Origin: Streptomyces iakyrus
Lineage (GTDB): Bacteria > Actinomycetota > Actinomycetes > Streptomycetales > Streptomycetaceae
Assembly (NCBI RefSeq): GCF_000717055.1
Contig: NZ_JNXI01000031.1
Span: forward strand, 1 to 63,072
Direction of reading: 5' to 3'
DNA length: 63,072 bases
The translations under genes were made by a program, and so were the position numbers. The notes beneath the pieces were generated by a model, which did no database searches, had not been told where the DNA came from, and was given only the letters and a program-made list of their open reading frames with translations. This document shows, piece by piece, positions 36,993 to 63,072 of this stretch; the stretch's first letter is position 1, and every line of letters begins with the position of its first letter.

Positions 36993-38605
36993 TATGCTTC
37001 TCCTGTTCCTCCGCCTTCTTGACCTGCGTTTTCGCCCTTTGCGGCGTTCGCTTTGATCTTGTTGGCGTTCAGTTCGGGGTTGATGTCTTCGGGCTTCAGC
37101 CCGAGCTTGTTCAGAAGTGCCTTCTCTGCGGCGCGCTGCACCAGCACCTTGCGGTAGTCACGGCCATCGGCCGCGCAGATGCTCTTGAGATCGAGCGCGC
37201 CCATGTCGTAGAGCACCTGATCCGCCTGGTTTTCCTTCAGCGGGTCAAGGCGCGGCTTCGACCACGTCTCGAACGTGCAACGGCAGATCGCGTCACGCAC
37301 TTCGTAGAACGACTTCTTGCCGAGCATCGGGATCGTGCCGCGAAGCGCGATCTGCTCTTCCAGCCAGGCCCCGAAGAACGGCACCGGGACGGCGTCGATG
37401 AACGCCGAGCGCCGCACTTCGTAGGACCGCCACACGTCGAACAACGCCGCGCGAGCGCCGCTGTAGTTCGTCGATGAGAAGTCCTTCGTCAGCGTTGCGT
37501 AGTCGACACCGAGCGCCGAAGCGAGCGTGTAGAGGTTGACGGAGTTGAAGTCCTTCAGCGCCGAGACCGACTGATTACCCTGCACCATGTGCAGTTTCTC
37601 ATTCGGTAGCAGGTGAGCGACTTTGCTCTTGCCGAACTTGAACTCCTGGCCTTTGTAGAAGTCGGCCTTGTCCGCCATCATGCGGAGCGTGAAGTCGAGG
37701 ACGGGGTTTTCCTCGATAGCCTTCCGGTGCTCGGCACCGATGACCTTCATCGCGTCTTCGTACTTCAGATCGCTTTCAATCACCGCCGCATAGGTCGCGC
37801 GGATCGCCGCGCTTTCCAGTTCGGTGATGTTGTAGTCCTGAAGCAGCCGCATCGGCAGCAACGCGGTCGTGAACGAGGTCATGCCTCGCGTCATGTCCGG
37901 CGCGTCGTGCTCGAAGAAGTGGATGACGTTCAGCCGTCCCCACGGCGTGTAGCGAGGCACCTTGCGCCAGGCGAACTGTGAGCCCGCAGGCCCCCAGATC
38001 GCCACGTCGCTTATCGTGCATTCGCGGATGTTGTAGGCTGTCGGCGCACCGTGCTTGTCGCGGTCGACGCCCATCCGGCGCTTGCCGGTGTAGTCGATAG
38101 CGCCTCGCGGGTCAGACAGCCGTTGCGGGTCGAGCAGATGCAGACAGGTGCGGTCGCCGTTGAACGCCTCTTTCCACTCTATGGTGGCAAGCACTTCGCC
38201 GTCGATGTAGTAGCCAGCGTAGGCCGTCCGCATCAGGCCGGAGAAGGTCTGCATGCGCTGCGCGTCGAGATGGAACAGCGATGAGTTGGCCGCTACATCC
38301 CACATGTTCTCGACCATGTCGGCGTATTCGAGGGCCTCTTCCTCGCTCACGCCGAGCAGCTCGGCGTTCGGCATGTACTGAAGCTTGAAATTCAGACCGA
38401 CGACGCTGTCGACGGTCGCCCGCTTTGCGCTCGCGCCATACGGGTTAGTACGCGACGCATCGCGCGCTGCGGCAGCCGTTCGGTCTTTGCTGCGCCAGGC
38501 GACCACGTCGGCCGAAGTGAGGCTCGGCGAGTAGCTGAAGCCGAAGCCGGGGCGCAGATGTTCGTGGTCTAGGCGACCACCGTCTTCTAGCACCAGTTCT
38601 ACCAT
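36992..38605 (-). CDS. Portal protein (lambda gpB family)
   Basis: From ATG 38605 the protein is 537 aa. It begins with SADVVAWRSKDRTAAAARDASRTNPYG and VDSVVGLNFKLQY, followed by GYYIDGEVLATIEWKE and VIHFFEHDAPDMTRGMTSF. The conserved DYATLTKDFSSTNYSGARAAL segment is typical of lambda portals. It forms the dodecameric DNA channel. An acidic/glycine-rich tail ends the protein. Confidence 0.92.
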   Translation of the reverse strand: MVELVLEDGGRLDHEHLRPGFGFSYSPSLTSADVVAWRSKDRTAAAARDASRTNPYGASAKRATVDSVVGLNFKLQYMPNAELLGVSEEEALEYADMVENMWDVAANSSLFHLDAQRMQTFSGLMRTAYAGYYIDGEVLATIEWKEAFNGDRTCLHLLDPQRLSDPRGAIDYTGKRRMGVDRDKHGAPTAYNIRECTISDVAIWGPAGSQFAWRKVPRYTPWGRLNVIHFFEHDAPDMTRGMTSFTTALLPMRLLQDYNITELESAAIRATYAAVIESDLKYEDAMKVIGAEHRKAIEENPVLDFTLRMMADKADFYKGQEFKFGKSKVAHLLPNEKLHMVQGNQSVSALKDFNSVNLYTLASALGVDYATLTKDFSSTNYSGARAALFDVWRSYEVRRSAFIDAVPVPFFGAWLEEQIALRGTIPMLGKKSFYEVRDAICRCTFETWSKPRLDPLKENQADQVLYDMGALDLKSICAADGRDYRKVLVQRAAEKALLNKLGLKPEDINPELNANKIKANAAKGENAGQEGGGTGEA

Positions 38606-38910
38606 CGGATATGTCCCCTCGCCGGTCGTCCGCGCTGAACTCGAAGGTTCGGGTTGAGGTCCGGCAGCCCGGCTGCTTGCGCGCCAGGGCATTGTGCGTA
38701 GAGTGTCTGATAGAGCATGAGCAGCGCAGGCGCGTCGGGCCTTGCGTACTCAGTCCATCGGTCGTTGAAGCGCACGACGACGCGGCTCTTTCCGGCCACG
38801 ACAGCGACGTACGCCTGATAGATCGCGGAGACCTGCGCCACGCAGTCGGGTAGGTCCGCGTTGAAGCTCTGCGCCTGCCCCGGAGGGCAGGCACCCGGTG
38901 TGTTAGCCAT
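38599..38910 (-). CDS. gpW-like head-tail connector
   Basis: The 103-aa protein contains VSAIYQAYVAVVAGKSRVVVRFNDRWTEYARPDAPALL, the helix-hairpin-helix pattern of lambda gpW. It lies between terminase and portal, as W does in lambda. Longer than lambda gpW (68 aa), with extra N- and C-terminal extensions. It overlaps the portal start by 7 bases. Confidence 0.78.
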   Translation of the reverse strand: MANTPGACPPGQAQSFNADLPDCVAQVSAIYQAYVAVVAGKSRVVVRFNDRWTEYARPDAPALLMLYQTLYAQCPGAQAAGLPDLNPNLRVQRGRPARGHIRW

Positions 38911-38928
38911 GTCTGCCCTCCGAGGGAG

Positions 38929-40791
38929 CTATTTGAACAGCTTGCCGATGTCGGCAGCGTTGAGCTGCTTCGGCTGTTGTTCTTTGGGGGTGTTGAGCCG
39001 CTTGATCCAATGATCCATGTCGATGTTCACCGAACACCGAACCGCGTAGTTGTAGACCATGAGATCGAGCATCTCGTTTCGACGATGCCGAGGCTTCGTC
39101 CACGTTCGAACGGGGAAACCATCTTTGTAGTCCGTCTCCGCGCGCTCAGCGGTCATCTGGTCGATCTTGTCGTCCGAGATGCCCTCATGGATATGCACGT
39201 AGCCAGGCCCCACCTTCGCGTTTGCGTATCGCGTGTAGATGGTCGCCTTCGCGTCGTAGGTGCCGACGAGAAACAGCTTCGTCTTGTCCTTGAAGCGCTG
39301 CTCCGACTTAATCCAGACTGGCTTCTTGTCGCCGGGCACGCCCTTGTGCGCGTACCAGCGTCGTCCGACCAACAGCCATTTGTTGCTGAAGTCGTAGACC
39401 TTCTGCGTGTGCGCGCCCGAGCCCGAGTCGATAGTGGCGGAGAAGATGCCGAGCGTCTCCCCTGCCGCGCCTTCGTGCTTGAAGCCGCTTTCGAGGAACT
39501 TCGCGAGTTCGTCCCACGCTTCGTCCGTGTTCGGGCCGAGCTGGATGACGTGATGCTTCAGAAGCCAGCACTCATCGCCCTTGCCCCAGGCCACGACCAG
39601 CACTTCGAGGCGGTCGTCCTGCACGTCGACGGCCGCTGTGAGCAGCGCCGCGCGCTTCGGCACGATCTCAGGATCATACTTCTCACGCCTCGACTTCAAG
39701 TTCTCAGGGTCCGCGAAGCTCGAAATGTCGCCGCGATACGGAAGACCGAGACGCGTGTTGTAGAAGGTCTGTTCTTTCTCGGGGTTGCCCTCCGAGTCTG
39801 ACCAGGCCTTCGCGATCTCTCGCATCGAGACCCACGGCGAATACAGCTCGTTGATCCAGAAACCGATCTTCTCGCGCGCAGGCGTCACGCCAGCGTCTAC
39901 CTTGAAGCATTTGAACGGGGTCGCCAGTCGGATCGGCGTGCCATCCTTCTGCGTGCCGATCACGGTGCCGACTTGATGCCATTCGCCCTCGCGAACGAGA
40001 CGGCGCTTTGTCATCTCGGTCCACAGCGCACCGCAGTCGTCGCAGTGATAGAGCGCGTCTTCCTCCTGCCCCTTCTTGTAGACGATGTTGTCCCACTTCA
40101 GCACTTGCTTGGCGGAGCAATCGGGGCAGGTAACGAGGAAGTAGTGTTGCCGCGTCTCTTTGAAGAGCTGGACGATGACGCTGGTGTCTTCGTGAACCGG
40201 CGTCGACACCCACAGGCCTTTGCGGTTGTGGTATGTCGTGCGTCGCTTCTTGGCGAGTTCGACCGGCGAACCTTCCTTCGACGAGCTGAGGGGCCATCGG
40301 TCGATCTCGTCGCCCGTAACGACACGGATGGGCCGCATCGCGAGCTTGTTCGGCGTGTTCGCGCCGACGAAATTGATCTGGCCGCCCTTATATTCGGTGC
40401 TGCCAGTCATCGCCGCTCTCCACTTCGGCGAATCTCTCACCGTGGTATCGAACGACTCTTCTTGGTACTTGTCGGCCAGGTCTTGCGTAGGCCACGCCGA
40501 GAGCTGCGCGCACGGCTCCGCCTCGCAGTAGTAGCCTTGCGCCGCGACAAGGATGGTCGTCTTGCCGACCTGGGACGACGTGATGAAGACGATGTCCTCA
40601 TTGTCGGGATCGGTGATCGCGTCCATCATGCCGCGTTGGAAGACCGCGTCGCCGATGCGATATGGGCCGGGGCTCGCGGATCGTTCAGGCGGCAGCACTA
40701 GGTTCGCTTCCGCCCACTCAGACAGCTTCAGCCGAGGCTTCGGCTTCAATCCTTCGGCCAGCCCTGCGAATAATGGGTCAGCCAGCATCAT
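38929..40791 (-). CDS. Terminase large subunit (lambda gpA family)
   Basis: The 620-aa protein shows SEWAEANLVLPPERSASPGPYRI (GpA signature), Walker A SSQVGKT (residues 72-78), VVTGDEIDRWP (Walker B region) and a zinc-ribbon (VTCPDCSAKQ, then HCDDCGALW). The C-terminal nuclease has AAVDVQDDRLEV. GpA-type enzymes cut at cos sites, implying cohesive ends. It overlaps the small-subunit gene by 14 bases. Confidence 0.94.
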   Translation of the reverse strand: MMLADPLFAGLAEGLKPKPRLKLSEWAEANLVLPPERSASPGPYRIGDAVFQRGMMDAITDPDNEDIVFITSSQVGKTTILVAAQGYYCEAEPCAQLSAWPTQDLADKYQEESFDTTVRDSPKWRAAMTGSTEYKGGQINFVGANTPNKLAMRPIRVVTGDEIDRWPLSSSKEGSPVELAKKRRTTYHNRKGLWVSTPVHEDTSVIVQLFKETRQHYFLVTCPDCSAKQVLKWDNIVYKKGQEEDALYHCDDCGALWTEMTKRRLVREGEWHQVGTVIGTQKDGTPIRLATPFKCFKVDAGVTPAREKIGFWINELYSPWVSMREIAKAWSDSEGNPEKEQTFYNTRLGLPYRGDISSFADPENLKSRREKYDPEIVPKRAALLTAAVDVQDDRLEVLVVAWGKGDECWLLKHHVIQLGPNTDEAWDELAKFLESGFKHEGAAGETLGIFSATIDSGSGAHTQKVYDFSNKWLLVGRRWYAHKGVPGDKKPVWIKSEQRFKDKTKLFLVGTYDAKATIYTRYANAKVGPGYVHIHEGISDDKIDQMTAERAETDYKDGFPVRTWTKPRHRRNEMLDLMVYNYAVRCSVNIDMDHWIKRLNTPKEQQPKQLNAADIGKLFK

Positions 40792-41419
40792 CTTCTCCGT
40801 AGTCGCGCATTGACGTGTAGAGCGTGTGCTGCGCCTGATCGACGCGCGTTTGCACCTTCAGCCGGACCTCGGCTTTCTTGTCGGGGTCCGCAAAGATCGA
40901 AGCGATCTCGGCAGGCAAGTTCTGAAGGATCGCCGCGATCCGCGCTCCGGCCTCAATGAACGACGATTGCACCTTCGCTCTTTCGACCAGCTCGCCCCGT
41001 TCTCTCTTGGCCCGCGTCTCGATACGCTCGATCTCGGCCTTGATCTTCTGCTCGCGCAGCTCCGTGATGCGGCTTGCCGCCACGAAGTGACTGTTTGGCG
41101 ACGGCGCGATCTGCTCATTGGGCTCGATACCGAGTGCCTCGCGATCCTCGGGGGAGAGAACCACGTCGGCATTCATCGGCGTCACCTTCGGCGGCGCGAT
41201 CTTGCCGGTGCCGTTGCCGTATGTTTGTGCGACGACGCGTACGCCGTGCTCGCTCATCTGGAAACCGCGCAACTGCTTGGCCTCTTGCACGTCGTAGAGG
41301 TTCGCGCTGTCGGGGTTTAGCTTCCCTTTGCGCTTGAGCTGCGAGATTCGTTGTTCACTCACACCAAACAGTATCGCGAGCTGCTTTGCGGGGAGCTTTC
41401 GCGGGTACTGTTCAGCCAT
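40778..41419 (-). CDS. Terminase small subunit (Nu1-like)
   Basis: The 213-aa product has an N-terminal winged helix-turn-helix (LPAKQLAILFGVSEQRISQLKRKGKL) and a long coiled-coil region (FVAASRITELREQKIKAEIERIE). Its C-terminal helix would bind the large subunit. This is the Nu1 layout; it would recognise cosB on the phage DNA. It lies about 500 bases from the candidate cos. Confidence 0.88.
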   Translation of the reverse strand: MAEQYPRKLPAKQLAILFGVSEQRISQLKRKGKLNPDSANLYDVQEAKQLRGFQMSEHGVRVVAQTYGNGTGKIAPPKVTPMNADVVLSPEDREALGIEPNEQIAPSPNSHFVAASRITELREQKIKAEIERIETRAKRERGELVERAKVQSSFIEAGARIAAILQNLPAEIASIFADPDKKAEVRLKVQTRVDQAQHTLYTSMRDYGEDDAG

Positions 41420-41795
41420 GAAGCCACCGCCTCATCCAGACGAGCAGCTTCGGATTGTCGCGGAACAGCGAGACCAGGCCCGCCTCGAAGCCGAGAACGA
41501 TCTGCTCTTCACGATCCTCTTTATCCCGCTTCAGTCTGCCGAGCCCGTGGTTGTCGAATATGACGTGCAGGCATTCATGCAGCACTATTCCGACGCCGTG
41601 ACCGGGGCTCGTTAGGTTTCTCGGCCAGATGTTGATCTGGCTGTACTCGAAATCGGCTTGACCGTACTTGTCGTCCGCTCCATCTCGGATGCAGATCGTC
41701 CAATCGTAGGCACCGATCTTGATGGTCTTCGGTAGTTCGTTGACGCAAGCGTCAACACCGCCCCGGCGACGAGGCGAATGCGACGTGTTTGCCAT
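41412..41795 (-). CDS. Putative zinc metallopeptidase (HExxH) next to terminase
   Basis: The 127-aa protein contains the zinc-binding motif HECLH in GVGIVLHECLHVIFDNHG, with a downstream EEQIVLGFEAGL helix that can supply the third ligand. This resembles ImmA/SprT-like minimal metallopeptidases. In phages such proteins may cleave repressors or host factors. ATG 41795 is preceded by GGAG at about 10 bases. It is the first gene of the leftward morphogenesis cluster. Confidence 0.72.
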   Translation of the reverse strand: MANTSHSPRRRGGVDACVNELPKTIKIGAYDWTICIRDGADDKYGQADFEYSQINIWPRNLTSPGHGVGIVLHECLHVIFDNHGLGRLKRDKEDREEQIVLGFEAGLVSLFRDNPKLLVWMRRWLHG

Positions 41796-41816
41796 GTTCG
41801 GGGGCTCCAAAGGGGG

Positions 41817-41837
41817 TGTTAGGTGACGTTTCTCACG
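41817..41837. promoter_or_regulatory. 21-bp operator upstream of the morphogenesis cluster
   Basis: TGTTAGGTGACG...CTCACG fits the genome-wide element and lies 22 bases upstream of the metallopeptidase start. No sigma-70 -35 box is visible on the minus strand, so late transcription may need the phage sigma factor or another activator. Confidence 0.6.
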
Positions 41838-42222
41838 CGTGAGGCGCATAGCTCGCGGGGGCGACCCGTGCGATCAAGAGTGAGCAAATTCGCTAAAACG
41901 TTGCCGACTTTCGGGGGCGGCGACTGCCCCCGGTGGGAGGGGGTGTGGCGACAGGGACCCACACCCCAGGGGGTGGGTCGGCGCGGCCGAGATCACGGTT
42001 TGTTACAAACGCGAGCAAGTCTCTGATATCGCGGTGTTTCTTGCTCATCACGCTCTATTACAGCGCGATAGCGCGGAGCGTGGCACGCGGCTTGCTTTGC
42101 ATGCGCGCATTGCATGCCTCGTAAGGCGCGACGCTGGCGCGCGTGGCATGTCGGAGCGCGCTAAGCGAGCGCGCAACACGCAAGAAAGCCAACGAATACA
42201 GGCATTAGGGGCGAACTAGACG
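41838..42222. other. Non-coding GC-rich segment with lambda-like candidate cosN
   Basis: No convincing gene is present. At 41915-41924 lies GGGCGGCGAC, identical to the first ten bases of the lambda cohesive end, inside an imperfect palindrome (GGGGGCGG...TGCCCCC). Next to it are further GC hairpins (GGGTGTGG...CCACACCC at about 41939-41966). Placement just upstream of the terminase genes of a GpA-type phage is where cos belongs. The right part has alternating GCGCG runs. Confidence 0.45.
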
Positions 42223-42223
42223 C

Positions 42224-42254
42224 TTGCTGTATGCGTTAGGTGTGCTACCTTACA
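42224..42254 (+). promoter_or_regulatory. Promoter-operator of the hammerhead-containing accessory operon
   Basis: TTGCTG (42224-42229), 17 bp, ACCTTA (42247-42252). The operator at 42234-42254 (GTTAGGTGTGC...CTTACA) covers the spacer and the -10. It is the only promoter seen before eleven consecutive plus-strand genes. Confidence 0.65.
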
Positions 42255-42304
42255 CACCTGCCACCGCACACGCGGGGGCGACACGCTCGAAAGGACAAAC
42301 GCCA

Positions 42305-42562
42305 ATGACCGAATTGAATTTTCGCCCAATGCCAACGCCACCGCGTCGCAAGGCCTATGACATTCGCTTTCGTTGCACGCTCAATGGGTGCGATTGGATC
42401 GCCCGCCTTTGGCTACGCGACCCTAGCGAAGCTTTCGACGCAATGTATCGTCGCCTCGCCTTTTCTTCGGTGCGCGGAAATGATCGCCCGCGCTACAGCC
42501 GAGACTTCTACCGCGTCGTTTCGTGCAATGTTTCCGCCGACCAATCCCGTCCGGTAGCGTGA
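42305..42562 (+). CDS. Accessory operon protein 1 (85 aa)
   Basis: GAAAGGA lies 9 bases upstream of the ATG, in the leader GAAAGGACAAACGCCA whose pattern recurs before most genes of this cluster. The product is basic with DIRFRCTLNGCDWIARLWL and DPSEAFDAMYRRLAF, a compact alpha/beta look. No family known. Confidence 0.65.
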   Translation: MTELNFRPMPTPPRRKAYDIRFRCTLNGCDWIARLWLRDPSEAFDAMYRRLAFSSVRGNDRPRYSRDFYRVVSCNVSADQSRPVA

Positions 42563-42567
42563 ACACC

Positions 42568-42666
42568 ATGAACGCAATCAATTTCAGCACAAAACGAGTC
42601 GGCGGCTTGCGGTTTATCCGCATTGGCCGGTTTTGCTTTTCGTTCTGCATCGCGAGGGCACGCTAA
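42568..42666 (+). CDS. Tiny basic protein (32 aa)
   Basis: The frame ATG 42568 to TAA 42664-42666 encodes an Arg/Phe-rich peptide (INFSTKRVGGLRFIRIGRF...). Its stop overlaps the next ATG (TAATG), so it may chiefly couple translation. Modest confidence. Confidence 0.4.
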   Translation: MNAINFSTKRVGGLRFIRIGRFCFSFCIARAR

Positions 42667-42842
42667 TGGTCCGCGCATACCTTGCAGCACTGCGCGACGC
42701 GGTTTGCGTCGCAGTTTCAATCGGTATCGTTATCGCCTTTGCCGCTATCGGTTGTGAAATGAACCGACGCGACTCCTACACTTCGCACAACGTGAAAGGC
42801 TTTCGCACGCCTAGCGTGTCGTATGTGTCACCTGACAAATAG
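42666..42842 (+). CDS. Small membrane protein or lipoprotein (58 aa)
   Basis: ATG 42666 overlaps the upstream stop. A short N-terminus leads to a hydrophobic helix (AVCVAVSIGIVIAFAAIGC) and a polar tail. The terminal AAIGC could act as a lipobox. Its TAG stop shares the G at 42842 with the first base of hammerhead ribozyme 1. Confidence 0.6.
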   Translation: MVRAYLAALRDAVCVAVSIGIVIAFAAIGCEMNRRDSYTSHNVKGFRTPSVSYVSPDK

Positions 42843-42894
42843 GACGAAACCGCGCCTAGCGCGGTCTGGCCGTCACGCGGCCACTGATGAGTCC
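42842..42894 (+). ncRNA. Type II hammerhead ribozyme, copy 1
   Basis: All invariant core elements are in place. GGAC (42842-42845) and GTCC (42891-42894) form the open stem II. GAAA is at 42846-42849. Stem III is seven pairs (42849-42855 with 42859-42865, loop CTA), closed by the A-T pair next to GAAA. The cleavage-site C is 42866, giving GUC before the cut. Stem I is six pairs (42867-42872 with 42878-42883). CTGATGA is at 42884-42890. Predicted self-cleavage falls between 42866 and 42867, 50 bases upstream of the next ATG. Confidence 0.93.
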
Positions 42895-42915
42895 AAGTCG
42901 AAAGGAAACAACGCC

Positions 42916-43326
42916 ATGACTACGCTTTTCCGCACTGAATCGCATGATCCAAAGACCAACGCGCAACGCAACCTTTGCGGTCGCACACATTACGTGGATG
43001 ACGATAATTTGCGATTCCACAAGTCGCGCGTCATCTCCGCGCGAGTCGTCGACAACGGTTTGCTTTTCGCAATCGTCACAAGCGATGCACTCGACTTTGA
43101 GAATCGCAAGCGAGGCTTTCGCTACGTCATATTTGACGTGTTCGGAACTGTGGTTTCGCGTTGCGATCTAGAACACGCGCGCCGCACATCAGAGCAAGCC
43201 ACTAAAGATATGTGGGATTGCTTGAACACGCTTGATGCTAAGGCGATCACTCGCGCGGCAATCGAGCGCGCAGAACGTAACCACGCAAACGAAATGGCCG
43301 ACCTTCGCGCCAAGTTGGAAGGTTGA
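42916..43326 (+). CDS. Accessory operon protein after ribozyme 1 (136 aa)
   Basis: The start ATG 42916 follows GAAAGGA by about 8 bases. The sequence has ARVVDNGLLFAIVTSDALDFENRKRGFRYVIFDVFG (beta-rich) and a charged C-terminal helix (RTSEQATKDMWDCLNTLD, ERAERNHANEMADLRAKLEG). No family recognised. It would be the first cistron of the processed segment between ribozymes 1 and 2. Confidence 0.65.
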   Translation: MTTLFRTESHDPKTNAQRNLCGRTHYVDDDNLRFHKSRVISARVVDNGLLFAIVTSDALDFENRKRGFRYVIFDVFGTVVSRCDLEHARRTSEQATKDMWDCLNTLDAKAITRAAIERAERNHANEMADLRAKLEG

Positions 43327-43330
43327 GCCA

Positions 43331-43768
43331 ATGCCTGAATTTGTCTTGAACGATACCCCCGCGCCGCGTGCTTACGACAAGCTTTCAACGTTCGCGAAGG
43401 CATACGTAGAAGCCGTGTTTTTCACCAATGGCGACACGGGCGACGACAACGAGTCGCGGTTGAATGATTTGGGAGTCGAGAGACTCACGCGCGAAGCAAT
43501 CCGCGACATTGCGAGCGATTGCGACTCGTTTCTCGGTTTCATCATGCCGGATGGCTGTTTCGTCCGGCAATGGCTCGACCGCTTGGCCGAGTCGCATGGC
43601 TACTCCGAAGAGCAGGCGGGCCATGACTTTTGGTTTTCGCGTCAAGGCCACGGCGTTGGCTATTGGGACCGTGGTTTAGGCGACGCGGGCGACGCGCTCC
43701 ACAAGGCCGCTAAGACGTTCAGCGAAGCTTACTGCGAAGTCTATCGCGGTTGGATTTACCACCGCTAA
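43331..43768 (+). CDS. Accessory operon protein (145 aa)
   Basis: The ATG is 5 bases after the previous stop. It contains FAKAYVEAVFFTNGDTGDDNESRL, CDSFLGFIMPDG and HDFWFSRQGHGVGYWDRGLGD. The segment EEQAGHDFWFSRQGHGVGFWDR-like is common in small phage/plasmid proteins of unknown function that occur in tandem accessory cassettes. No catalytic site evident. Confidence 0.68.
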   Translation: MPEFVLNDTPAPRAYDKLSTFAKAYVEAVFFTNGDTGDDNESRLNDLGVERLTREAIRDIASDCDSFLGFIMPDGCFVRQWLDRLAESHGYSEEQAGHDFWFSRQGHGVGYWDRGLGDAGDALHKAAKTFSEAYCEVYRGWIYHR

Positions 43769-43790
43769 CCCTAGAAAGGAAAACACGCCA

Positions 43791-44051
43791 ATGCCTGCAC
43801 TCAATTGGAATCACAGCAATGTGCGCGAGGTCGCAGACCTCTTGACTCGTCTCAATCCTAGCTTCGCTTTCACTGTTGATAGAGGCGTGGAGGTAATCAA
43901 GCGTCACGTTGAAAGTAACATGACTGCTCCGGGCTATCTCTCAATCTACGGATACTGCGCAACGGTTTGGGCTGATGACGATTACAGCCTCCACGTCAAA
44001 GTGACGGTTGAACCGTACACCATAGCGAAATTCTTGGAATCGCAACGCTAG
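43791..44051 (+). CDS. Accessory operon protein (86 aa)
   Basis: The leader GAAAGGAAAACACGCCA precedes the ATG, matching the cluster's standard ribosome-binding context. The product has LLTRLNPSFAFTVDRGVEVIKRHV and a beta C-terminal part. Its TAG stop shares G 44051 with ribozyme 2. Confidence 0.65.
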   Translation: MPALNWNHSNVREVADLLTRLNPSFAFTVDRGVEVIKRHVESNMTAPGYLSIYGYCATVWADDDYSLHVKVTVEPYTIAKFLESQR

Positions 44052-44103
44052 GACGAAACCGCGCCTAGCGCGGTCTGGCCGTTACGCGGCCACTGATGAG
44101 TCC
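44051..44103 (+). ncRNA. Type II hammerhead ribozyme, copy 2
   Basis: GGAC (44051-44054) pairs with GTCC (44100-44103) as stem II; GAAA is 44055-44058. Stem III is seven pairs (44058-44064 with 44068-44074). The cleavage C is 44075, stem I is 44076-44081 with 44087-44092, and CTGATGA is 44093-44099. It differs from copy 1 in the stem I loop (TTACG versus TCACG), a change that does not disturb the core or the pairing. Predicted cut 44075/44076. Confidence 0.93.
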
Positions 44104-44123
44104 AACGAAAGGTACTAACGCCA

Positions 44124-44516
44124 ATGCTAACGCCAGAACAAGCCGCCGACATCCGCGCCAGGGATGAGGCTTTGCACGCGTGGATGAAAGCACGCAAAAC
44201 GAATAGCTATCATCCCTCCGAACTGCCGCCCCATATCAACCCGCCGACCAATGACGAGCGCGGCCAGGTCGAGCTATTCGAGTTTATGCGGGACATACCG
44301 GAACGGTATTTCCTCTATATCAACGCAAAGACCAATACCGCCACAACGTGGAACGGGGAAAGGCTTGGCTCCGCGTCGTTTGGTCGAGAGTACCGCGACA
44401 ACTTTGGCGGAAAGCGTGTCCCGGTAACCGTTCGCGCGATCAACGGCGCAACCTATCACGGCACATACTTTAAGAGCGCGGGCGACTATGCGCGCGTCAA
44501 GAAAGCGAAGGGTTGA
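44124..44516 (+). CDS. Accessory operon protein after ribozyme 2 (130 aa)
   Basis: The leader CGAAAGGTACTAACGCCA precedes the ATG. The N-terminal part is helical and polar, then ERYFLYINAKTNTATTWNGERLG and KRVPVTVRAINGATYHGTYFKS are beta-rich. No family recognised. First cistron of the segment between ribozymes 2 and 3. Confidence 0.65.
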   Translation: MLTPEQAADIRARDEALHAWMKARKTNSYHPSELPPHINPPTNDERGQVELFEFMRDIPERYFLYINAKTNTATTWNGERLGSASFGREYRDNFGGKRVPVTVRAINGATYHGTYFKSAGDYARVKKAKG

Positions 44517-44520
44517 GCCA

Positions 44521-44763
44521 ATGGCAACCTTCGACACTGTCACGGGGACCGCGCCTAGCTATTGGGCGTCGTATTTCATCAATGGCGACGCTTCCGGAAT
44601 GGAAGATTCCGAAATTGCACAAGCGGACAAGTTCGCCGCGTGGTTAGGCGGTTCAATCGTTAGCTGCGACGACGCGGGATTCATGCGCTGGCATGACGCG
44701 GCGCAGTTCGGCGTTCTCGCGAGCGATTGCCGAACCTATACCGCGCTAATCGAGAGGGATTGA
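44521..44763 (+). CDS. Accessory operon protein, DUF6926-like (80 aa)
   Basis: The ATG is 5 bases after the previous stop. The sequence SYWASYFINGDASGMEDSEIAQADKF resembles a family of short phage/plasmid proteins (DUF6926-like) with a Y-x-x-Y-x-I-N-G-D-A-S-G motif. Function unknown. Confidence 0.65.
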   Translation: MATFDTVTGTAPSYWASYFINGDASGMEDSEIAQADKFAAWLGGSIVSCDDAGFMRWHDAAQFGVLASDCRTYTALIERD

Positions 44764-44766
44764 CCA

Positions 44767-45039
44767 ATGCAAAAGTATCGCGCCGACAAATCGGAACATA
44801 TGCCCGATGGATCAACCGCGTGGTTTGCGGTGTGGATGGGTGGCCCCACATTGGCGAAGGTCGAGAACTGCCGACTCGATAACATGGCGGGCGACATGCG
44901 CCGCACTGTTTACGTCACGGGGGAGCCCGACACGTATTTTTCCATTCCGGCTGTCTGTAGCGTCGCGGGTTGTCGCGTTAGAGGCTATCTCACGGGCGAC
45001 GACAACGGGAATTACGTTTTCCGCCATTGCTACTACTAG
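44767..45039 (+). CDS. Accessory operon protein (90 aa)
   Basis: Starts 3 bases after the previous stop. Contains WFAVWMGGPTLAKVENCRLD and RTVYVTGEPDTYFSIPAVCSVAGCRV, a beta-rich pattern with several cysteines. Its TAG stop shares G 45039 with ribozyme 3. Confidence 0.63.
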   Translation: MQKYRADKSEHMPDGSTAWFAVWMGGPTLAKVENCRLDNMAGDMRRTVYVTGEPDTYFSIPAVCSVAGCRVRGYLTGDDNGNYVFRHCYY

Positions 45040-45096
45040 GACGAAACCGCGCGCCAGGTAGCGCGGTCTGGCCGTTACGCGGCCACTGATGAGTCC
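45039..45096 (+). ncRNA. Type II hammerhead ribozyme, copy 3
   Basis: GGAC (45039-45042)/GTCC (45093-45096) form stem II; GAAA is 45043-45046. Stem III is seven pairs (45046-45052 with 45061-45067) with an eight-base loop in place of the three-base loop of copies 1 and 2. The cleavage C is 45068, stem I is 45069-45074 with 45080-45085, and CTGATGA is 45086-45092. The loop insertion with unchanged core and stems is direct evidence that structure is maintained. Predicted cut 45068/45069. Confidence 0.93.
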
Positions 45097-45117
45097 AAGT
45101 CGAAAGGTACTAACGCC

Positions 45118-45300
45118 ATGAATCCCACTGTTTACATTGATGGCCGATTGGCCGACCATATCGGCGCAATCGGTTTGCGCGAGATTGCCAATCGTGTTTC
45201 AACGCTCGCGCTACAGCCGGTTGACGTTATGACGCATGGCGAGTCGCGATATCACTCTGACAAGCGCATTACTGGCGCGGTAGAAGCGAAGAAGGCCTAA
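45118..45300 (+). CDS. Accessory operon protein after ribozyme 3 (60 aa)
   Basis: CGAAAGGTACTAACGCC precedes the ATG. The product starts MNPTVYIDGRLADHIGAIG and is soluble, ending in basic residues (GAVEAKKA). No family recognised. Confidence 0.6.
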   Translation: MNPTVYIDGRLADHIGAIGLREIANRVSTLALQPVDVMTHGESRYHSDKRITGAVEAKKA

Positions 45301-45304
45301 CGAG

Positions 45305-45400
45305 ATGACAAACCGCGATTTTGCTATGACGTGCTTTGCCCTCGCTTGCTTGCCATGCGCCGATAACGGCGCGGGCGATTCGTGCGACGAACCGCCATAG
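45305..45400 (+). CDS. Tiny cysteine-rich protein (31 aa)
   Basis: Starts 4 bases after the previous stop. The 31-aa peptide (TNRDFAMTCFALACLPCADN, then an acidic end) has four cysteines. It is the last frame before the operon terminator. Expression is uncertain. Confidence 0.4.
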   Translation: MTNRDFAMTCFALACLPCADNGAGDSCDEPP

Positions 45401-45405
45401 CTTTG

Positions 45406-45477
45406 CCCTAGCGTTGCGACGCTAGGGTTTAAGCCGAAAACGCCGCTAGGGAGTTGATCCTTAGCGGCGTTTTTTTT
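45406..45477 (+). terminator. Tandem hairpins ending the accessory operon
   Basis: First an 8-bp hairpin (45406-45413 with 45420-45427, followed by TTT). Then a strong intrinsic terminator: AACGCCGCTA (45439-45448) pairs with TAGCGGCGTT (45462-45471), followed by eight T residues to 45477. It closes the transcript begun at about 42.26 kb. Confidence 0.9.
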
Positions 45478-46347
45478 CGTCCAATTCCGCGCCGCTCATT
45501 CGCTCAACCCGCCCCAATGGTACGAAATACCGGGCGACGGATTGAGCGCATGGGCGCGCGCCTAATGCGATCCTAGAGGCATGTTGCACTTTTATCGAAA
45601 TGCCACACCGCGTTTTCGGCCGAGTGGCCGCGCATACCTCGGCGATTGTGGCTTTTGAGCACTGACGAGATCGCACTGTCATCAATCCGCCCAACTGCGA
45701 TTTTGGCGATCTCCAAAACCAACATGCTCTCGAAAAAAAATTTTTCCGCGCGTGCGTGCGCGTGCTCGCGCGAGCGGACGGGTTGCGACCCGCGACGGGG
45801 TATTCGACACGTCGCTCCCGCCAGCGCCGTATCTACTCATCGTCGCGGGTCGCACAGAGCCAGGAGAGCATGACCCCCGTCTGCTCGTATCCTGGCGAGC
45901 CAATCGCTTGGCTCCACGCGCCTCAACGCGTGCTGTTTGGGTGAGCGGCATGGATCGTGAAGCGCATCGTTCATAACGGTGATGCACAGCTCGTTTGGGG
46001 TATGAGCTGATGATCCCTGTGAGCGCAGTTCTCTCGCCCTTGATCCATGCCACTCAGCTCGTTTCGCAGAACGTGAATTTTTGGTTTTTCGTTCTGCGAA
46101 TTTTCGTTTTCTCGTTCTGAGAAAAGTCGTTCAGAGGGGGTATCGAATTGCACGGGGATGGCGAGGCCGCACCGACCTTCATATGGCGGGTGCCCTCACC
46201 TTGCCTGCTATTCCCCGAATAGCGCCCATCCGCGACACGGCGCTGACCTAGCGCATAGTGGATGGCCCTGAACACACGTGACGCACGCGGCCGTGGTCTA
46301 CGGCAACGCCTTTATGGTCAGAGGCATGAGGGGCTCTTGTCTGTGTA
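45478..46347. other. Non-coding segment with repeats
   Basis: I see no credible gene in these 870 bases. There is an A8/T5 tract at about 45735, an alternating purine-pyrimidine GC stretch just after it, and the TTCGCAGAACG inverted repeats described separately. Open frames here have Arg/Ser-biased shadow composition. Confidence 0.5.
46063..46123. repeat. Inverted repeats near the ParA-like gene (candidate parS or operator)
   Basis: TTCGCAGAACG (46063-46073) is exactly mirrored by CGTTCTGCGAA (46090-46100) across 16 T-rich bases. A third, degenerate copy (CGTTCTGAGAA) follows at 46113-46123. The cluster lies about 220 bases beyond the 3' end of the ParA-like gene. Confidence 0.55.
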
Positions 46348-46995
46348 TCAGGCCAGGTTGTTGAGCTGCGCAGCGTCGAACTGCGCGAACACGTCCTTCA
46401 ACCAGCTTCGCGTGTAGCCGCGCAGCACGAAGGACGCCTGGCTTCCGATGAAGTCGTGGAACGGTTGCGCGACCGCGTCGACGGCCTTCGCCGCTTCCCC
46501 ATCCAGCCGGGGAATGTTGAGCGCGCCAGCCGGTACATCGTACGCGGTGTCGTCGATATGGTTCGCGAGCACAACGTGCTTCGATCCTGCGAGCGCTGCC
46601 ATCACGGGCTTGATCTCGTCGAGCGATTGCGTCGCAGGACCGACGACATGCAGCACAGTGATGCGCAGCTTGTTCTGCTTCGCCGCGTCGAAGAAGCCGA
46701 CAACGTCGAGCGTCTTCAGCGTGGGCGACAACAGACCGGCGCACACGTCGACGACGGTCACCTGGGTCGATGCCAGGTCGTCGAACACCTTGACCTGATC
46801 GGTCGACTTGGTGATGTCCACGATCTGCGCGCGGCCAGGAAAGAAACGTTGCAGGCCGCCGCTCGGGGATTGCGTGTCGAACGCGCGGAAGTCGATGCCG
46901 TTGGCACCGTAGTAGCCGAGCAGTGCGCGGCTCAGCATGGTCTTGCCGACGCCACCTTTGTCAGCGCCGACGAATACCAGATGCGGGATGTTCAT
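46348..46995 (-). CDS. ParA/MinD-like P-loop ATPase
   Basis: The deviant Walker A motif KGGVGKT (residues 13-19) in HLVFVGADKGGVGKTMLSRA is diagnostic of ParA/MinD ATPases. FRAFDTQSPSGGLQRF gives motif A' and VTVVDVCAGLLSP the Walker B. The C-terminal part is less conserved. No ParB is adjacent. Roles could be prophage or plasmid-like partition, or positioning in the infected cell. It is preceded by the GpZ-like gene on the same strand. Confidence 0.82.
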   Translation of the reverse strand: MNIPHLVFVGADKGGVGKTMLSRALLGYYGANGIDFRAFDTQSPSGGLQRFFPGRAQIVDITKSTDQVKVFDDLASTQVTVVDVCAGLLSPTLKTLDVVGFFDAAKQNKLRITVLHVVGPATQSLDEIKPVMAALAGSKHVVLANHIDDTAYDVPAGALNIPRLDGEAAKAVDAVAQPFHDFIGSQASFVLRGYTRSWLKDVFAQFDAAQLNNLA

Positions 46996-62886: not shown

Positions 62887-63072
62887 ATGCGTAACGCAGA
62901 TAGCTATCGCGGCGCTCGCCGCAACAACGCCCGCCGTGAAGGCTGGCTGAAGAAGTGGCGCAACGGCATGTTTGCCGTCGCCGCCAATGACAAGGCCAAG
63001 CTCAACGAGCGCGCTGTCATGGCGAACTCGGCACGCGAGGAAGCCGCCAGGGCGCTCGTCGCCGCTGGCGTC
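62887..63072 (+). CDS. Hypothetical protein, N-terminal part (gene continues at position 1)
   Basis: ATG 62887 follows CGGAG plus a run of ten C. The first residues are basic (MRNADSYRGARRNNARREGW). The frame is uninterrupted to the end and continues at base 100 of the left end, giving about 105 residues. See the entry at 1-231. Confidence 0.75.
   Translation, partial: MRNADSYRGARRNNARREGWLKKWRNGMFAVAANDKAKLNERAVMANSAREEAARALVAAGV
62974..63072. repeat. Direct terminal repeat, right copy (assembly overlap)
   Basis: Exact copy of bases 1-99. Removing one copy gives a 62,973-bp circular molecule. Confidence 0.95.

Follow-up and report, generated by a model that had tools for sequence, protein, structure and literature searches.

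Three predicted type II hammerhead ribozymes between small genes of a phage genome

Hammerhead ribozymes of prophages are known to occur in groups. Multiple copies flank single genes or short gene blocks, three tandem arrangements have been tested in vitro, and the triple arrangement around ardA of Agrobacterium tumefaciens cleaves in E. coli as well as in vitro (Perreault et al. 2011, PMC3088659). Clustered hammerheads also accompany small open reading frames (ORFs) of unknown function, and the function of prokaryotic hammerheads was described as open (De la Pena et al. 2017, PMC6155905). A study from 2023 cites their enrichment near Mu-like phage genes and near other ribozymes (PMC10085705).

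Here we analyze contig NZ_JNXI01000031.1 of the Streptomyces iakyrus assembly GCF_000717055.1 (63,072 nucleotides; the window), in which three type II hammerhead motifs lie between small, co-directional phage genes. The motifs would likely self-cleave a predicted shared transcript to yield four shorter messenger RNAs (mRNAs). Their catalytic core, three stems and position between stop codon and likely ribosome-binding site can be read directly from the sequence; cleavage and co-transcription are inferred. A preliminary description of this DNA had taken three hammerheads in one operon for an undescribed arrangement. This was wrong: clustered and triple prophage hammerheads appear in PMC3088659, and three or four copies occur in 6 of 120 stretches from IMG/VR, among the matches listed. 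The arrangement is known, and is new in detail only.

Sequence, fold and covariation of the three motifs

The + strand of the window contains three complete type II hammerhead motifs (Table 1), with exactly the coordinates and order of elements that had been proposed. The search pattern GGACGAAA-N-GTC-N-CTGATGAGTCC matched three times in the window and not once in 100 dinucleotide shuffles; a scan of the 9.1-Mb assembly with this strict pattern yielded no match outside the three blocks. The minimum-energy fold of each block alone is the hammerhead secondary structure (−25.9, −25.9 and −28.1 kcal/mol for copies 1, 2 and 3; z −2.4, −3.3 and −2.5). In all copies the core is surrounded by three helices, of which stems I and III end in loops and stem II (4 bp, GGAC/GUCC) is open. 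Stem III comprises 7 bp including A15.1-U16.1, as first described; stem I had been given as 6 bp and in fact has 7, namely 6 Watson-Crick pairs and a closing U.G, with a 3-nt loop. The invariant core, consisting of C3UGAUGA9, G12A13A14, A15.1-U16.1 and C17, is intact in all three copies. The copies differ in their loops: the stem III loop has 8 nt in copy 3 and 3 nt in copies 1 and 2, and the stem I loop has C in copy 1 where copies 2 and 3 have U. The preliminary description was right about the core and about these loops, and the RNA 5′ ends that it placed at 42867, 44076 and 45069 agree with cuts predicted 3′ of GUC.

Assignment to type II, with entry through stem II, is supported by the folds, by the best Rfam match and by a custom covariance model. 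At the Rfam gathering cut-offs there was no match anywhere in the window. The best match of all three blocks (E ≤ 10, positions 42700-45200) was RF02276, Hammerhead_II, with 27.5, 30.1 and 28.8 bits for copies 1, 2 and 3 and E-values of 0.0086, 0.0017 and 0.0037 over 2.5 kb; the tool omitted four weaker overlapping matches of the same clan, and no family of another clan matched this region at E ≤ 10. All three scores fall below the gathering cut-off of 37, an outcome that the preliminary description had named in advance as one that would refute it.

The custom model was derived from an alignment of 46 type II motifs from other loci, 47 having been chosen and one row identical to copy 1 (L357) left out. 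It scored copies 1, 2 and 3 at 69.0, 69.6 and 61.8 bits (E 1e-13 to 1e-15), gave no further match in the window at E ≤ 10, and at E ≤ 0.001 retrieved only the three copies from the whole assembly. Agreement at the core is given by construction, because the core was in the search pattern; the stems were not. Among 36 stem-checked motifs from 15 other phage stretches, the Rfam cut-off passed a single one (L053:5236, 39.9 bits). Because the custom model scores the copies so highly and Rfam recovers so few motifs of other phages, we read the low Rfam scores as a limit of that model and not as a fault of the motifs. The same recovery rate suggests that the Rfam cut-off misses much of the subclass with a 4-bp stem II. 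An extra type II hammerhead at L053:6318-6385 (Rfam, 48.1 bits) was missed by the strict pattern, so that copy counts per phage obtained with the pattern are lower bounds.

Covariation was assessed on 148 distinct pattern hits, taken without a stem filter and leaving out the window and its Phycicoccus copy (L357 equals copy 1). Pairs 3-6 of stem III were standard in 117-118 of 126 hits, against a mean of 52-57 when partners were re-dealt, and pairs 1-6 of stem I in 130-138 of 141, against 58-80; overall, these pairs were standard in 92-98% versus 41-57%. Rows with hairpins too short for that many pairs had been dropped (22 and 7 of the 148 for stems III and I, respectively). Pairs 1-2 of stem III are nearly invariant and so uninformative on covariation, and pair 7 of stem I, which is U.G in 99 of 141 hits, shows no excess (paired in 114, versus 110.9 re-dealt). 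Both stems had at least four pairs in 159 of 175 real hits and in 12 of 3500 with shuffled stem interiors. The pair count on the 46 rows chosen for the custom model agrees, these rows having been picked for good stems and being biased towards structure. Across relatives, the stems are kept by pairing rather than by sequence.

On this evidence the three blocks are real, complete and probably active type II hammerheads. That they are instead inactive remnants or plain stem-loops would fit the sub-threshold Rfam scores and the finding that some consensus hammerheads are inactive in vitro (PMC3088659); the intact core in every copy and the strong pair covariation among relatives make this extremely improbable. 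Nor do the motifs resemble intrinsic terminators, an interpretation that we rejected, as no T run follows them on the + strand. A terminator scan gave three terminator-like sites versus 5.1 expected; the one that coincides with stem III of copy 1 was listed for the − strand alone, antisense to the cluster.

Placement of the motifs between stop and start codons

The gene upstream of each copy ends in TAG, the G of which also opens stem II, and the motifs end 5, 3 and 5 nt (copies 1, 2 and 3) ahead of a GAAAGG, the likely Shine-Dalgarno (SD) site. The distance from the upstream stop to the predicted cut is 24, 24 and 29 nt, and that from the cut to the ATG 49, 48 and 49 nt; because the cuts fall between the two codons, no reading frame would be cut. 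The copies resemble one another (89-92% identity over 83-88 aligned bases) from the TA of the stop codon as far as the start codon, and no further. Such sharply confined similarity is also in line with a repeated cassette of stop codon, ribozyme, SD site and start codon that serves mainly as a homology site for swaps of small genes, cleavage being incidental. Phages with several copies, however, vary the stem sequences and keep the pairing (L102 has four distinct sequences for each of stems I and III, and L023 has four for stem I), so that homology alone would not suffice to maintain the copies, and we consider the cassette explanation very unlikely.

The relation to stop codons extends to a wider set of 135 distinct type II motifs, those of this phage among them. 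An A precedes stem II in 129 motifs and follows it in 104. The 94 motifs with a 17-nt stem I hairpin have a stem I loop of the form U-N-A-N-G (U in 93, A in 70, G in 68). An ORF stop ends at most 4 nt before, or on, the first motif base in 85 of the 122 motifs that have a stop within 60 nt, or in 85 of 130 if the eight motifs without a stop are counted; five motifs at stretch ends were dropped. For random positions in the same stretches, the corresponding counts are 227 of 2478 with a stop in range and 227 of 6750 overall. When the set was restricted to IMG/VR and near-identical motifs were collapsed, the stop abutted type II motifs in 73 of 104 evaluable clusters among the matches listed (113 in total, less five at stretch ends and four without an ORF). 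An alternative count, using the longest ORF in a wide range, gives 69 of 117; the narrower range underlies the counts of 85 and 73. Among the matches listed for type I, 26 of 69 clusters abut a stop and a further 33 have the stop inside the motif (88 clusters, 2 + 17 dropped), and among those listed for type III none of 42 does (49 clusters, seven dropped); both sets of counts are rough, as some loci match both patterns. The upstream stop of the same 42 type III clusters lies about 33 nt (median) before the first paired base.

This placement is intriguing, and the abutment of stop codons by phage type II hammerheads, with the stop often contributing the conserved A, is possibly new. No stop-codon overlap of phage hammerheads was found in the literature searched, PMC3088659, PMC10085705 and PMC6155905 included, which is weak evidence that it is unreported, the search having been little aimed at stop codons. 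One tentative reading would make the stop codon part of the phage type II hammerhead, with the terminating ribosome on stem II, so that translation of the preceding gene would license each cleavage. The upstream TAG, TAA or TGA would then supply the conserved A that precedes stem II, and type II hammerheads would act as scissors gated by the ribosome, cutting genes off an operon singly as the translation of each is completed; the advantage of the type II permutation would be that no other leaves a hairpin on both new mRNA ends. We regard this proposal as doubtful. Tight packing of phage genes could explain part of the abutment, and motifs from related phages are not independent. The survey provides a measurable hypothesis, namely that phage type II hammerheads with a GGAC/GUCC stem II start within 4 nt of a stop codon, where a terminating ribosome would meet the ribozyme.

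The downstream side of the motifs bears on another explanation, in which the ribozymes are active but do more than split the operon, their role being to reduce the expression of the downstream gene or to set its timing; cleavage would leave a 5′-OH mRNA whose SD site is then free, or which is unstable. The close spacing of 3-5 nt between motif and GAAAGG favours such a role. So does a switch-like feature of the relatives: a helix of at least five pairs between core and tail is available in 39 of the 135 motifs, a count that includes related phages, against 5.9 with shuffled tails. Loop I of the window copies may, in addition, pair through 4-5 bases with the stretch between SD site and start (no control). 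The window copies themselves lack a core-complementary tail (longest runs 3, 2 and 2), and no added ligand-binding domain was noticed in the motifs, no search having been aimed at one. We judge a primary role in downstream expression unlikely.

Two sets of complementary sequences may be recorded here. In many relatives (L005, L011, L013, L022, L053 and others) the tail 3′ of GUCC reads AUCAG, the complement of core CUGAU, or GACU, the complement of AGUC; such a tail might fold into an alternative hairpin, closing off the core or separating the products. In the window, loop I of copy 2 (CGUUA, 44080-44084) has five possible pairs with UAACG between SD site and start (44116-44120), as does copy 3 with its own, and loop I of copy 1 has four possible pairs (GUCA/UGAC) that reach into the start codon; these pairings have no control.

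Probable transcript splitting in the phage gene cluster

Under the preferred reading, transcript splitting, a cut after GUC in each gap would release separate gene pieces. The upstream mRNA would keep the whole stem III hairpin at its new 3′ end, and the downstream mRNA would begin, with a 5′-OH, at the whole stem I hairpin, 48-49 nt ahead of the ATG; with stem II open, the type II topology would leave a hairpin on both cut ends. Judging from general knowledge of mRNA decay, such ends would be expected to shield the pieces from exonucleases and from 5′-end-dependent RNase E. After the cut, the products would be joined solely by the 4-bp stem II. Because each motif shares its first base, in stem II, with the stop codon, a terminating ribosome would lie over the 5′ strand of this stem and over the GAAA, and could delay cleavage until its departure. 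There is good support for the earlier identification of the motifs as type II hammerheads lying in a phage gene cluster. Co-transcription is assumed from gene order and the terminator, no promoter being listed upstream of the cluster.

The strict pattern occurs in at least 120 IMG/VR stretches, which are not a random sample and for which the following counts hold among the matches listed. Both stems are present in at least one motif in 115 of the 120. Two copies were found in 11 stretches, three in 3 and four in 3, and in all 17 of these multi-copy stretches the copies lie on one strand. An ORF stop lies within 60 nt upstream of 128 of the 134 motifs off stretch ends (random positions, 2478 of 6750), and 122 are followed within 70 nt by a start that has a purine-rich site (no random control); 117 have both features. 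In GTDB species genomes, 22 stretches match the pattern and only 13 have both stems, two of which (L340 and L357) are this same phage. The nine pattern-only stretches, in which both stems are not present, were not used to claim a wide taxonomic spread. Within the genus of the assembly the pattern occurs in one of 295 genomes, the window's own. A megablast search with positions 38000-46400 found no match in 50,697 deposited phage records; the terminase matches 768 deposited records, all at less than 60% identity.

Relatives of the cluster's phrog_1915 gene were found at 20 IMG/VR loci, of which one (L365) is this same phage. The closest relative locus, L366, encodes a neighbour protein with 69% identity and contains a diverged type II motif (L366:7788-7853) that starts at the second base past a TGA stop and has a U.G-closed stem I. 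Its E-value is 0.0043 over 238 kb with covariance model R1 and 0.00023 over the locus with filters off; Rfam gives nothing in this stretch even at E ≤ 1. Run on the 19 relatives and six host stretches, model R1 returned L366 and three matches with E ≥ 3, one of them in a relative. A search at the Rfam gathering cut-offs gave no motif in 12 of the 20 loci.

Several observations weigh against transcript splitting. By Rfam's rule, the three motifs are not members of RF02276, all of them scoring below its gathering cut-off. A pseudoknot between loop I and the tail was critical in the type II example that was mutated, and the majority of type II motifs can form one (PMC3088659); it is unavailable in the first 12 nt after the window copies (longest Watson-Crick runs 2, 3 and 2) and is not enriched among the 135 motifs, at least four pairs occurring in 7 against 9.9 expected with re-dealt tails. 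Lacking an excess over re-dealt tails, the pseudoknot was discarded as a candidate tertiary contact, and its absence makes the speed of cleavage at cellular magnesium uncertain. Among 18 consensus-conforming hammerheads tested, 14 were active and 4 inactive (Perreault et al. 2011, PMC3088659). A simple promoter scan gave no site upstream of the cluster; its one site, within the gene after copy 2, is at chance level (1 found versus 2.0 expected). Finally, 18 of the 19 loci related through phrog_1915 have no convincing motif in the sequence examined with model R1, and in the L366 motif the core is altered (CUGACGA, U7C) and an extra U precedes stem II. The ribozyme thus appears and disappears among related phages, and an essential role is accordingly harder to claim.

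The window spans an entire contig, the two ends of which (1-99 and 62974-63072) are an exact direct repeat of 99 bases; such a repeat is expected of a circular or circularly permuted genome, here of 62,973 bp. Because it encodes terminase (large and small subunits), portal, head protease, tail sheath, baseplate and tape measure proteins, besides a primase/helicase, the window is the genome of a contractile-tailed phage, probably complete. The small-gene cluster lies on the + strand and the terminase genes that flank it on the other. Nine ORFs of the cluster were tested, and none matched a family of known function: one matched phrog_1915 (178 proteins at E ≤ 0.001), one DUF6926 below its cut-off and one a PHROG at E 0.05, and six had no match. 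An ORF at 42823-43326 reads through copy 1; coding through the motif was rejected, a start at 42916 being more likely because an SD site and ATG occupy 42900-42918 and the other copies have a start at the matching position. The terminator in Table 1 was not listed by the scan, whose limit its 13-nt loop exceeds.

Table 1. Coordinates of the ribozyme motifs and of the small-gene cluster in the window
Feature	Position	Strand	Remarks
ORF, 85 aa, first of the cluster	42305..42562	+	no family match
ORF, 58 aa, upstream of copy 1	42666..42842	+	TAG stop at 42840-42842, its G being ribozyme base 1
Type II hammerhead motif, copy 1	42842..42894	+	predicted cut after 42866
Likely SD site, GAAAGG	42900..42905	+	read directly; next ATG at 42916
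ORF, 136 aa, downstream of copy 1	42916..43326	+	no family match
ORF, 145 aa	43331..43768	+	phrog_1915, function unknown, E 9.4e-27
ORF, 86 aa, upstream of copy 2	43791..44051	+	TAG stop at 44049-44051, one-base overlap with ribozyme
Type II hammerhead motif, copy 2	44051..44103	+	predicted cut after 44075
Likely SD site, GAAAGG	44107..44112	+	read directly; next ATG at 44124
ORF, 130 aa, downstream of copy 2	44124..44516	+	sole PHROG match at E 0.05
ORF, 80 aa	44521..44763	+	weak Pfam match to DUF6926, 26.9 versus cut-off of 27 bits
ORF, 90 aa, upstream of copy 3	44767..45039	+	TAG stop at 45037-45039, one-base overlap with ribozyme
Type II hammerhead motif, copy 3	45039..45096	+	8-nt stem III loop; predicted cut after 45068
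Likely SD site, GAAAGG	45102..45107	+	read directly; ahead of the last genes, ATG at 45118
ORF, 60 aa, downstream of copy 3	45118..45300	+	
Likely intrinsic terminator of the cluster	45439..45477	+	perfect 10-bp stem AACGCCGCTA/TAGCGGCGTT, then a T run; read directly

The contig probably represents a contaminating phage rather than a phage of the assembly's host. Its G+C content is 0.62, and that of six other stretches of the same assembly 0.68-0.73. The stretches of the window that were compared recur at 100% in a Phycicoccus jejuensis assembly, and 4,520 bases in a metagenome-assembled genome of the Eggerthellaceae. The IMG/VR copy of the phage (L365) is 99.99% identical over 7,901 bases; its contig measures 63,029 bases and has a different start point on the circle. 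When 16S was used to look for a second organism in the assembly, no 16S of any kind turned up, and the search carries no weight either way. One protein of the window belongs to a cluster of 23 member sequences.

Comparison with described ribozymes

This phage, whose single cluster contains three nearly identical copies, each in the same place between stop and start, is a compact test case for the function of prokaryotic hammerheads, which PMC6155905 leaves open. As in the type II hammerheads described before (PMC3088659, RF02276), the motifs show the permutation with stem II open, the CUGAUGA/GAAA core and the GUC triplet, and lie between genes in phage DNA. They differ in that a 4-bp stem II is followed by an unpaired A on both sides, in that the immediate tail offers no pseudoknot with loop I, and in their scores below the RF02276 cut-off.

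The locus shares with the clustered prophage hammerheads (Perreault et al. 2011, Figure 3) a run of genes split into units of one or a few genes, there too with three copies, and several close copies flank single genes or short blocks of a phage genome here as well. The genes differ from those of the Agrobacterium set, which was assayed in vitro and in E. coli, whereas the present set is known from its sequence. HHphage of the haloviruses HF1 and HF2 likewise lies just ahead of a phage gene start in a polycistronic unit, and a mapped transcript 5′ end falls at most 3 nucleotides from its cleavage site (PMC3088659); it differs in having a variant core, in belonging to a haloarchaeal virus and in being described upstream of one helicase gene. 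The theta ribozymes of gut phages, which resemble those of hepatitis delta virus (HDV-like), are also self-cleaving RNAs in phage genomes (PMC10879173), but belong to another ribozyme class and are linked, in the title of that paper, to tRNA-based recoding.

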